DNA from: Thermincola carboxydiphila
Lineage (GTDB): Bacteria; Bacillota; Thermincolia; Thermincolales; UBA2595
NCBI GenBank assembly: GCA_016841325.1
Contig: JAENZJ010000001.1
Span: 186,001 to 250,000 of the forward strand
Reading direction: 5' to 3'
Length of the DNA: 64,000 nt
Shown here: in pieces, positions 39,465 to 43,162 of the stretch
Layout: each line of letters begins with the position of its first letter
Numbering within the stretch: the stretch's first letter is position 1
Position numbers and translations under genes: made by a program
Notes under the pieces: generated by a model
What the model saw: the letters and a program-made list of their open reading frames with translations, nothing else
What the model was told of the DNA's origin: nothing
Databases searched by the model: none

Positions 39465-40154
39465 TTAGACCAACAACGGGGCCGCCGGGGTTTTTCCCTG
39501 GGTGGCCCCAAAAATATCAGTCCAGAGGTTTGCTGTTTTCTTCAGCCGGTAAAGGTGGCTTCCCATGGCCAGGGAGATTCGCTGGGTTTCTTCAGAAACG
39601 ACAATAATCAGGGCATCTGTCTGTTCTGTCAGCCCCAGTGCTGAGCGGTGCCTCATGCCCATTGGCTGGCCGTGTTCAAAAAGGGTCTTCTGGGACAGGG
39701 GGAGGACACATCCCGCTGCGGCAATCCGGTTTTGCCTGATAATCACAGCCCCATCGTGGAGCGGGTTCCCCGGGTGAAAGATGGTCTCAATCAAAGGGGC
39801 CGTGATCACCGCATCAATAGGTGTGCCTGTACATATATAGGGTGACAGGTCATCTCGTCTTTCGATTACCATAAGGGCGCCGTGTTTCCTCTTAACAAGC
39901 CTGTTGAGCGCTTCCACGACTCCTTCAAAATGCCCCAGGCTGGGGAGGAGACAGTTCTCGAACTGGTATGTCAGGAGCAGGCTTTCAACTTCGTCTGTTG
40001 TTTCCCGAAGGTTAGTAAAGCTGTGGAAAATTTCTTCACAGGATGCCTTCTTATCCAGCAGGTTTTCCGTCGCCTTAGCGGCTGTAATAATTTCGAAAAG
40101 GTGTGTATGGATTTTTTCTTTTACATCTGTGGTTACAGACTCAGCAACTCTCAA
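39465..40154 (-). CDS. Diadenylate cyclase, CdaS-like
   Basis: Makes cyclic di-AMP from two ATP. The 229-residue protein has an N-terminal helical region (about 1-80) and a DAC domain (about 85-215) with both signatures: DGAVIIRQNRI (DGA) and MRHRSALGLTEQ (RHR). No membrane span is present, so it differs from CdaA and resembles CdaS, whose N-terminal helices restrain activity. TTG start at 40154 has GGAGGG 8 bases upstream on the minus strand. It is divergent from the M-box transcript and near mgtE and corA. Confidence 0.85.
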   Translation of the reverse strand: MRVAESVTTDVKEKIHTHLFEIITAAKATENLLDKKASCEEIFHSFTNLRETTDEVESLLLTYQFENCLLPSLGHFEGVVEALNRLVKRKHGALMVIERRDDLSPYICTGTPIDAVITAPLIETIFHPGNPLHDGAVIIRQNRIAAAGCVLPLSQKTLFEHGQPMGMRHRSALGLTEQTDALIIVVSEETQRISLAMGSHLYRLKKTANLWTDIFGATQGKTPAAPLLV

Positions 40155-40221: not shown

Positions 40222-40250
40222 TTGACATTTTGCAGCTATTGACATATACT
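40222..40250 (+). promoter_or_regulatory. Consensus promoter of the M-box transcript
   Basis: TTGACA and TATACT separated by exactly 17 bases on the + strand, about 30 bases before the riboswitch. Confidence 0.85.
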
Positions 40251-40277
40251 GAAAACGTAAGTTGATATATAGCATCA

Positions 40278-40445
40278 AGCTTCGTTAGGTGAGGCTTCTG
40301 CACAGATCATACGCCACTGCCCGGAAATGTCGAGAGACGCCAATGGGTTAACAGGTACTGCCGGATTAAGGTTTTACCTAATGTGGCTGAACCGTTTGGG
40401 TTCTAGCTGTGTATGTGCCAAAGCTCGTACGAGGGAGACAGATGT
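40278..40445 (+). promoter_or_regulatory. M-box (ykoK) Mg2+ riboswitch, + strand
   Basis: The conserved blocks of the M-box are present in order: TTCGTTAGGTGAGGC, ACGCCACTGCCC, AATGTCGAGAGACGCCAATG, AACAGG, AAGGTTTTACCTAATG, TTCTAGCTGTG and GTGCCAAAGCTCGTACG. The M-box binds Mg2+ and stops expression of Mg2+ transporters. AGATGTGTTA (40440-40449) can pair with TAATACATCT (40464-40473) as an antiterminator that competes with the terminator at 40470. Remarkably no transporter lies downstream on this strand; mgtE is convergent. Confidence 0.95.
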
Positions 40446-40469
40446 GTTAGTTTCTTATTCTGTTAATAC

Positions 40470-40493
40470 ATCTTCCTCCCGGAAGATTTTTTT
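40470..40493 (+). terminator. Riboswitch-controlled terminator
   Basis: ATCTTCC and GGAAGAT with a 4-base loop and seven T: the expression platform of the M-box. Confidence 0.85.
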
Positions 40494-40510
40494 CATTTGG
40501 GGTGATTTTT

Positions 40511-40615
40511 ATGGATGCTGCGCCTAGATGCGGCCAAAAAAATATGATAAAAACCGGCATCCAAAATTTAATGAAAGAAAATGCTGCGAGGGGGTCTTTG
40601 TGTCTTTTGAACTGA
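40511..40615 (+). CDS. 34-residue ORF downstream of the M-box
   Basis: The only + strand ORF after the riboswitch terminator. GGGGTGA lies 5 bases before ATG. The peptide starts MDAAPRCGQKNMIKTG and ends SLCLLN; it has two cysteines and no membrane span. It may be a Mg2+-regulated micropeptide, a remnant of a lost gene, or chance. GGATGC over the start can pair with GCATCC at about 40557, which might influence initiation. No homologue recognised. Confidence 0.35.
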   Translation: MDAAPRCGQKNMIKTGIQNLMKENAARGSLCLLN

Positions 40616-40677
40616 GACGGGTATTTCTGTTTATATTCATTTTATATTGATATGAATATCAGCGGTTGATGTTAGGG

Positions 40678-40717
40678 TCCTCCCCGGGTGTTTCTTTAAG
40701 GGGAGGATTTTTGTTTT
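40678..40717 (+). terminator. Terminator ending the M-box transcript
   Basis: TCCTCCCC and GGGGAGGA, 8-bp stem, 14-base loop, then TTTTTGTTTT. Termination falls about 4 bases before the convergent mgtE stop codon. Confidence 0.85.
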
Positions 40718-40721
40718 CAGG

Positions 40722-42080
40722 TCACTGCAGGTAAATGATAAATGCAGAGGCAGTGCCGAAATAAATACTTAAGGAAAAAATATCGTTAAGTGTGGTAATC
40801 AGGGGTCCTGAGGCTATAGCCGGGTCTATCCTGAAATAATACAGCAGCAGGGGAATCACTGTACCGGCCAGTGTCCCGATTATAAGGGTCAGGAACAGGG
40901 AACTGCCAACAATAAAACCAAGGAACAGGTTCCTCTGCCACGTGTATGCTACCAGTGCAATCAACACTCCACAAATGGCTCCTATAGTGATACCTACTCC
41001 CAGCTCACGCATTAACAGCCGGAAAACTGTGCGCCGGTCAATATCATGGGCGGCAAGGCCGCGGACAACCACAGCCAGTGACTGGGTTCCGGTGTTTCCT
41101 GTCATCCCGGCAATCATAGGCATAAAAAAGGCAAGAGATACGGCTTTTTGCAGGGTATCTTCAAATTTGCTGATAATACTCCCCGATATTAACCCGATAA
41201 ACAGCAGCATAATCAGCCAGGGCAGCCTCAGGAAGGATGCTGTTACAGCCCGGGTATTGAAATCTATTGCTTTACCTGATGCAGAAAGTTTGCCGATATC
41301 TTCATTGGCTTCCTGAATAAGTACATCAAGCACATCATCAACAGTCACTATTCCCAGGAGACGGCCCTGACCGTCAGTGACCGGAAGAGCGACAAAGTCA
41401 TATTTTTCAAACAAGCGGGCCACTTCTTCCTGATCGGTGTCGGCGGTTACTGAAATGACCCGGCTGAACATAATATTGTCGATCCTGTCATTAAGGTCGG
41501 CAAGGAGCAGGTCACGGTATGAAACAACACCTGTTAACCTGCTGCCTTCATCGAGCACATAAAGGTAGTAAATGTTTTCTGCTATTTCAGCAAAGTCTTT
41601 CAGCTTATCAACTGCTTTTCTTACGGTATAGGCATTACGGATCCAGACATAACGGTTAGTCATAATACCTCCGGCGGTTTCCGGAGGGTATTGCATCAGG
41701 TTCCTTACATTTTGTGATTCTTCAAGGCCCATGGATGCAAGGAACTCCTGGCTTTTGTTAAGGGAGAGCTCATTGAGCAGGTCTGCCAGGTCGTCATTTT
41801 CCATCAGGTCCATGACTCTGGAAGCTACCCCGGTGCCCAGCCGGTTCAGGATATCCAGCTGCAGCGGTATATCCAGTTCCTGAATCAGAATTGCTGTCTC
41901 CTTAAGGTCCAGGTATGTGAGGAATTCATTCCGCAGAATATCAGGTGTATTTTGATAAGCTTCAGCCACATCATAGGGCTGCAGTTCCTCTATGACTTCC
42001 CGAAAACCCTGCCGGTTTTTGCCGGTCAGGCAGTTGGTCAGGGTATTTTGGGTCCGGATTTCCGACGTATCATGCAGCAT
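40722..42080 (-). CDS. mgtE: Magnesium transporter MgtE
   Basis: Mg2+ channel, about 452 residues. The N-terminal superhelical domain (residues 15-120, ending MGLEESQNVRNLMQYPPETAGGIMT) is followed by a CBS pair (YVLDEGSRLTGVVSYRDLL, PVTDGQGRLLGIVTVDDVLD) and five membrane helices from about residue 275 with GMTGNTGTQSLAVVVRGLA. Mg2+ binding to the cytosolic domains closes the channel. ATG at 42080 has GGTGA 8 bases upstream; ATG 42101 has no ribosome site. Its own upstream region is too short to hold an M-box. Confidence 0.95.
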   Translation of the reverse strand: MLHDTSEIRTQNTLTNCLTGKNRQGFREVIEELQPYDVAEAYQNTPDILRNEFLTYLDLKETAILIQELDIPLQLDILNRLGTGVASRVMDLMENDDLADLLNELSLNKSQEFLASMGLEESQNVRNLMQYPPETAGGIMTNRYVWIRNAYTVRKAVDKLKDFAEIAENIYYLYVLDEGSRLTGVVSYRDLLLADLNDRIDNIMFSRVISVTADTDQEEVARLFEKYDFVALPVTDGQGRLLGIVTVDDVLDVLIQEANEDIGKLSASGKAIDFNTRAVTASFLRLPWLIMLLFIGLISGSIISKFEDTLQKAVSLAFFMPMIAGMTGNTGTQSLAVVVRGLAAHDIDRRTVFRLLMRELGVGITIGAICGVLIALVAYTWQRNLFLGFIVGSSLFLTLIIGTLAGTVIPLLLYYFRIDPAIASGPLITTLNDIFSLSIYFGTASAFIIYLQ

Positions 42081-42211
42081 AATTTTATCACCGCTAATCA
42101 TGGTATTTTTAGATTACACAGCTTAGTGTACCCCTATCGGTGACTAGTTTACTACTTTACAGCTAAAGCCGTTTTTTGGCAGATAGGAAAGTATTACAGA
42201 AAGGAGTGAGA

Positions 42212-43162
42212 GTGGTGATCAAGATATATAATTCCGATTTATCAGGGAAATTTTTCGAGACAGACACAATAACAAGGGGATGTTGGATAAACCTGATAGA
42301 TCCCACCGAATCGGAAATTCAGCTGATATCTGAAAAATTGGGGATTGAATCCGATTATATCAGGGACCCCCTTGATGAGGAGGAAAAATCCAGGATTGAG
42401 AAAGAAGACGGGACTCTTTTGATAATTGTTGACATACCGGTTTTCAATACTGTTGAGGAGACCTCTACCTTTGATACCATTCCCCTTGGGATGATAGTCG
42501 TGGGAGACAACTATTTTGTTACTGTCTGCCTCAAAGAAAACCCTATTATAAACGATTTCGCCAACAACAGGGTAAAGGGTTTCTTTACTTTTAAGAAGAC
42601 CCGGTTCATCCTGCAGCTCCTTTACAGAATAGCTGTATATTACCTGAGGTACCTGAAACAGATTAACAGGAAGACTGACCAGATCGAGAGAAGGCTGCAT
42701 AAGTCAATGAAGAACCAGGAACTCTTTTCCCTGCTGAGCCTGGAAAAGAGTCTGGTATACTTTACCACATCACTGAGGTCAAATGAGATTGTCATGGAAA
42801 AACTGCTTAAATCGGGCTGGCTGAAGCTCTATCCGGAGGATGAGGATATCATGGAGGATGCCATTATTGAAAACAAACAGGCCATCGAAATGGCCCATAT
42901 ATACAGCAATATCCTCAGTGGTATGATGGATGCCTTTGCTTCAGTTATCTCAAATAACCTGAACATTGTGATGAAATTCCTGACATCGGTTACCATTGTC
43001 CTTTCCATCCCGACTATGGTTGCCAGCTTTTTCGGTATGAATGTCAGGCTTCCCTTCGGTTTTGACACGGGAAACCCTTATGCTTTTTCGCTGATAATCC
43101 TAATTTCCCTGGGAGGGACATTTTTTGCCACCCTGTTACTGGCTAAGCGTAGGATGTTCTGA
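42212..43162 (+). CDS. CorA family Mg2+/divalent cation transporter
   Basis: A 316-residue pentameric channel protein. The N-terminal cytosolic domain is followed by long helices and two C-terminal membrane spans (VTIVLSIPTMVASFFGMNVR with the GMN selectivity motif, then LIILISLGGTFFATLLLA). GTG 42212 or 42215 is the start: AAGGAG lies 6 or 9 bases upstream. It is divergent from mgtE. A second Mg2+ channel beside MgtE suggests different affinity or direction; Ni2+ or Co2+ transport cannot be excluded. Confidence 0.9.
   Translation: MVIKIYNSDLSGKFFETDTITRGCWINLIDPTESEIQLISEKLGIESDYIRDPLDEEEKSRIEKEDGTLLIIVDIPVFNTVEETSTFDTIPLGMIVVGDNYFVTVCLKENPIINDFANNRVKGFFTFKKTRFILQLLYRIAVYYLRYLKQINRKTDQIERRLHKSMKNQELFSLLSLEKSLVYFTTSLRSNEIVMEKLLKSGWLKLYPEDEDIMEDAIIENKQAIEMAHIYSNILSGMMDAFASVISNNLNIVMKFLTSVTIVLSIPTMVASFFGMNVRLPFGFDTGNPYAFSLIILISLGGTFFATLLLAKRRMF

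Follow-up and report, generated by a model that had tools for sequence, protein, structure and literature searches.

The M-box unit and its neighbourhood

The window, a stretch of 64,000 nucleotides from Thermincola carboxydiphila, carries on its + strand an M-box riboswitch followed by a short open reading frame (ORF) and a second intrinsic terminator, and this unit is bordered by a divergent diadenylate cyclase gene and a convergent mgtE (Table 1). A covariance-model search aligned the aptamer, the sole M-box of the host genome, to positions 1-169 of the RF00380 model, scoring 131.5 bits (E 2.3e-30) where the gathering score is 44. Its expression platform is of the terminator/antiterminator type, and the two antiterminator strands read GGGAGACAGATGT (40433-40445) and ACATCTTCCTCCC (40468-40480). 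Aptamer, promoter and platform are those of other RF00380 M-boxes, and the riboswitch is ordinary in itself. What sets the locus apart from an ordinary M-box is the addition of a leader ORF and a second attenuator, followed by mgtE in reverse, so that no Mg2+ transporter gene in sense orientation stands directly 3' of the unit; a transporter in that place is usual for RF00380 M-boxes but does not define the aptamer.

The ORF encodes MDAAPRCGQKNMIKTGIQNLMKENAARGSLCLLN. In the sequence, the U-tract of terminator 2 is confined to the + strand; this terminator is therefore part of the M-box transcript and no canonical terminator for mgtE.

Table 1. Features of the M-box unit and of the adjacent genes in the window.
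Feature	Position	Strand	Remarks
Diadenylate cyclase gene, divergent from the M-box promoter	39465..40154	-	Pfam DAC
Sigma-70-type promoter, TTGACA-17-TATACT	40222..40250	+	11/12 match
M-box aptamer	40274..40444	+	RF00380 covariance-model match, 131.5 bits, full length
Antiterminator, stage 1	40433..40480 (40433-40445 with 40468-40480)	+	Complementarity read off the sequence
Intrinsic terminator 1 of the M-box	40470..40493	+	Stem 40470-40487 and U-tract, z -4.9
Shine-Dalgarno GGGGTGA of the leader ORF	40499..40505	+	Read off the sequence; kept in G001 and G002
Leader peptide ORF, 34 codons, MDAAP...	40511..40615 (ATG to stop)	+	Kept in G001 and G002
Segment A GAGGGGGT, predicted antiterminator strand in the ORF	40588..40595	+	Predicted partner of the terminator 2 5' arm
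Intrinsic terminator 2 (proposed stage 2 attenuator)	about 40675..40712	+	-18.1 kcal/mol, z -2.5
mgtE, convergent, between switch and corA	40722..42101	-	Pfam MgtE, CBS, MgtE_N
corA, predicted ancestral target of the M-box/leader unit	42215..43162	+	Pfam CorA

The original prediction had described an M-box on the + strand with a consensus promoter, an antiterminator/terminator pair, a 34-codon ORF with a good ribosome site, a second terminator ahead of the convergent mgtE and no transporter directly downstream, and all of these elements are recovered here. It had also proposed to look for the ORF and the convergent layout in related genomes, and both are kept in G001 and G002. It had overlooked both the divergent cyclase gene and corA just past mgtE.

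The latter gene matters for the interpretation. In four genomes of the same family (G003, G004, G005 and G008), an M-box, a short ORF and a terminator stand directly before corA, and the terminator there is the counterpart of terminator 2; in a fifth, G007, the M-box and short ORF stand before an mgtE. A genome of the same order (G009) has a leaderless M-box before corA. The reversed mgtE between the M-box/leader unit and corA is found in three Thermincola genomes, in the same place in G001 and G002. As the unit precedes corA, and once mgtE, in relatives, mgtE would have come to lie between switch and corA; the simplest reading is that it entered there, and corA is the predicted ancestral partner of the Thermincola unit. 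The suggestion that an inversion had parted mgtE from its own M-box is thereby ruled out, since it is corA that the M-box, leader and terminator 2 precede in the relatives. In G008, too, a diadenylate cyclase gene is the upstream neighbour of the M-box/corA unit, so that c-di-AMP and Mg2+ transport may conceivably be linked.

A leader peptide family behind M-boxes

M-boxes were found in 133 of 398 sampled Bacillota genomes, and 144 M-box loci were gathered, nearly all of them from this sample. When the ORF of 10-75 codons with the best Shine-Dalgarno (SD) sequence between M-box and main gene was picked without regard to any motif, 93 loci yielded one, and 75 were left once within-genus repeats had been removed. 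Asp or Glu occupies codon 2 in 51 of these 75 leader ORFs but in 17 of 118 main genes (Fisher 3e-14), and Pro occupies codon 5 in 27 of 75 against 4 of 118 (Fisher 2e-9), the starts of the main genes having been called automatically and some of them wrongly (for example at L001). Dinucleotide shuffles gave 2.8 ORFs with an acidic second codon where 50 were observed, and 0.57 with both this codon and the proline where 38 were observed. As a control, 30 SAM-riboswitch leaders contained three such ORFs, in which the motif was absent. An artefact of SD selection alone is ruled out by the shuffles together with these leaders.

Applied as a rule, the motif finds a leader in 83 of the 144 loci, distributed over 35 families, and misses three more loci of the family to which Thermincola belongs; a recognisable leader is absent at about two fifths of M-box loci. 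Conservation is confined to some five residues at the N-terminus (MDSGP, MDPDP or MDAAP, for instance), while the body and length of the peptides vary freely. Within Thermincola's family the peptides start with MDAAP, MDGWP, MDVAP, MDAGP, MDGAP or MDGGP and have little else in common, and no Pfam match was obtained for the leader peptides tested. At the conserved positions several synonymous codons are in use (Asp: GAC 34, GAT 22; Pro: CCT 44, CCG 16, CCC 11, CCA 6), which indicates selection on the peptide and not on the RNA alone. The genes behind the leaders differ: Desulfosporosinus hippei has MDSGPYHSRF before mgtE, while Ectobacillus panaciterrae (MDPDNPRSCK) and Carboxydocella thermautotrophica (MDGSKGKD) have theirs before corA. 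In M-box mgtE loci resembling L023 (MTERI..., families f11, f103 and f119) the MDxxP leader is absent; at L023 itself a different short ORF follows an SD (MSSVRQNER...) and may be a leader of another type.

More than half of the sampled loci of a textbook riboswitch thus carry an unannotated leader peptide under selection between switch and gene. These MD..P... peptides, placed between magnesium riboswitches and magnesium transporters, apparently form a phylum-wide set that had not been described. Leader-peptide attenuators responding to Mg2+ are known as such, and the new part is the family behind M-boxes, which sets them in tandem with a riboswitch. A search of the open-licence literature found no account joining M-box riboswitch and leader peptide, the nearest being a report on mycobacteria (PMC12810186). 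It describes uORF2/Rv1805A as a conserved short ORF directly 3' of the mycobacterial M-box with an invariant Pro7, specific to mycobacteria and of a function that its discoverers call unclear.

In the phylum Actinomycetota, 21 of 296 sampled genomes had an M-box. Loci with downstream mycobacterial PE-like genes carry MSPGDSPY, MSPSDSPY, MSPDDSPY or MSSSDSPG behind strong SD sequences, the MSPxDSPY type accounting for six loci in two genomes (L290, L292 and L311-L314), and other loci of this sample carry MESDPG, MPEDGE or MPDDGE. The MSPxDSPY ORFs match the Pro7 of uORF2, Rv1805A having been compared by its description. With the Bacillota leaders they have in common an acidic N-terminus with proline, a likeness of pattern that need not mean homology; uORF2 differs from them in having a translational platform with Rho. 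From this likeness in sequence, uORF2 may belong with the Bacillota leaders, and a shared role is suggested.

The family also recalls the Mg2+ leader peptides of enterobacteria. MgtL of mgtA, whose acidic/proline N-terminus (EPDP) destabilises ribosomes (PMC11282234), and MgtQ of Salmonella mgtCBRU, which has Asp2 and Glu5 and an acidic N-terminus with the same effect (PMC8092293), share two traits with the M-box leaders. One is that the leader of a Mg2+ transporter gene contains a short ORF with an SD, a trait found Bacillota-wide and, at the window locus, in the ancestral layout only. The other is the acidic and proline-containing extreme N-terminus, although MDAAP of the window, with a single acidic residue, is weaker than EPDP. 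In MgtL failed translation means expression, and the same logic is proposed below for the M-box leaders; their kinship was compared at the level of the motif only. MgtL however lacks an M-box ahead of it and acts on a terminator that depends on Rho (PMC11282234), whereas the leaders described here would act through an intrinsic terminator or a hairpin that hides the SD. In MgtQ, alternative 1:2, 2:3 and 3:4 pairings free the SD of a Mg2+ transporter, as may be the case in the M-box leaders, but it has 8 codons and lies inside an operon without a riboswitch (PMC8092293). In its ancestral layout, with a leader ORF before corA, the window unit resembles CorL, the leader of Salmonella corA, as the latter is described. 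CorL is a Gram-negative, Rho-linked leader without an M-box. Its name appears in PMC11552253.

RNA pairing and a proposed second attenuator

At this locus, folding predicts that as long as the 3' arm of terminator 2 has yet to be transcribed, segment A is bound to the 5' arm (mean p 0.73); taken in the window alone, the complementarity of A to this arm (A:B) is no better than in shuffles (p 0.29). The same early pairing between the 5' arm and a G-rich segment of the ORF, preceding synthesis of the 3' arm, was predicted in all eight family genomes folded, and it was lost once the ORF was covered. In G007 the partner of the ORF segment is the strand that hides the SD of mgtE, and in L017 and L016 both paired segments depart from the family form in step. 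A terminator or SD-hiding hairpin is clear at 41 loci, and at 17 of them the complementarity between ORF body and the 5' arm of this hairpin exceeds that of shuffles (p<0.05, where 2 are expected; Fisher 3e-13); in these 17, segment A lies at a median of 28 nt from the ORF end and is mostly SD-like. Owing to this complementarity, a ribosome finishing the ORF would let the OFF hairpin form, and one failing early would not.

These data are consistent with a two-stage Mg2+ attenuator, which we consider reasonably likely, in which an M-box switch is followed by a leader peptide attenuator that senses translation; the leader peptides probably act as a second, translation-based switch. Stage 1 would be the standard M-box transcription switch. 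In stage 2 the N-terminal MDxxP motif would render early translation fragile at low Mg2+. A ribosome completing the ORF would cover segment A, terminator 2 would form and the output would be off, while a ribosome that had dropped off, or was held, at the first codons would leave segment A free to pair with the 5' arm, and transcription would continue. Elsewhere than in Thermincola, the OFF structure may be an SD-hiding hairpin in place of terminator 2. Against the model speak the chance-level A:B complementarity at the window locus, the mixed polarity of the folds described below, the single acidic residue of MDAAP and the layout in Thermincola, where the unit has no transporter directly behind it. 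If this model is true, RNA and ribosome would each take a reading for Mg2+ transport in Bacillota, a double control for which enterobacteria have so far provided the examples, and the mycobacterial uORF2 (Rv1805A) would gain a direct, testable role.

Attenuation of the Trp-operon kind, in which the ribosome would pause and not drop off at MDxxP, mask segment 1 and let 2:3 form, is an unlikely alternative, though the strongest one. Its cue may be slow Asp-Pro or Gly-Pro synthesis, reflecting the state of EF-P or ABC-F, and the effect of Mg2+ may then be indirect; B. subtilis ribosomes do stall on Asp-Pro repeats if EF-P is missing (PMC11381351). At 13 of 70 loci the complementarity between start region and ORF body exceeds that of shuffles (Fisher 3e-6). 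Moreover, when equilibrium folds were computed in four ribosome states, about ten of the 50 SD-type loci followed a Trp-like 1:2, 2:3, 3:4 scheme, the transporter SD being most open, or ON, with only the start occupied. Others among the SD-type loci looked most open after full translation, however, and polarity across all 50 was mixed; the association with Mg2+ genes and the resemblance to MgtL and MgtQ also favour ribosome destabilisation over pausing. The leader family may, on these folds, hold more than one output logic.

For Thermincola, the two-stage attenuator would have a particular consequence. With mgtE reversed between unit and corA, a read-through transcript would cross mgtE in antisense and, 1.5 kb further on, could extend into corA. 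The M-box transcript may act on mgtE as an antisense RNA or by transcriptional interference, the latter as the original prediction had suggested, and Rho might end an untranslated antisense RNA of 1.5 kb. Only tentatively, and with less confidence than the two-stage model itself, do we propose that most M-boxes of Bacillota, and the mycobacterial ones, work together with a nascent-peptide Mg2+ sensor, an MgtL-like trick evolved independently in which ribosomes would fail at an acidic/proline N-terminus at low Mg2+, and that the tandem switch of Thermincola drives a read-through RNA in antisense to mgtE and in sense to corA.

Conservation of the Thermincola unit

When G000 is compared with G001, identity at the fourfold-degenerate sites of three genes (mgtE, corA and the cyclase gene) is 54-60%, but it amounts to 94.8% in the promoter region, 97.1% in the aptamer, 86.3% in the platform, 88.6% in the leader ORF and 86.7% in the stretch 3' of it. 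The unit is not decaying but under purifying selection, and its orphan layout is peculiar to the genus and still selected. These values make it quite improbable that the Thermincola unit is a left-over that has lost its function and that the leader family matters only in relatives, even though mgtE parts the unit from corA and the M-box is gone in G002. In the latter genome promoter, aptamer and terminator 1 have been lost, but the leader ORF (86.2%) and the stretch 3' of it (88.3%) are kept; in G003 the M-box is truncated, and leader, terminator 2 and corA are kept. The leader module is thus retained without an intact M-box in two genera.

A small protein acting in trans, for example on MgtE or CorA, is very improbable, as conservation stops after some five N-terminal residues and the examples tested lack a Pfam match, despite an ORF with a good SD that G002 retains without an M-box; the micropeptide acting on MgtE of the original prediction is unlikely because of this same short conservation and because the peptide is also found ahead of corA and of many other genes.

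An AT-rich stretch containing promoter-like boxes replaces the M-box in L052 (G002) and truncates it in L028 (G003), leader and terminator 2 being retained at both loci; for the G002 piece a mobile element is unsupported, as just one copy of it was found across six genomes. A strong hairpin (40629-40668, + strand) that follows the stop codon of the leader and precedes terminator 2 is kept in the three Thermincola genomes.
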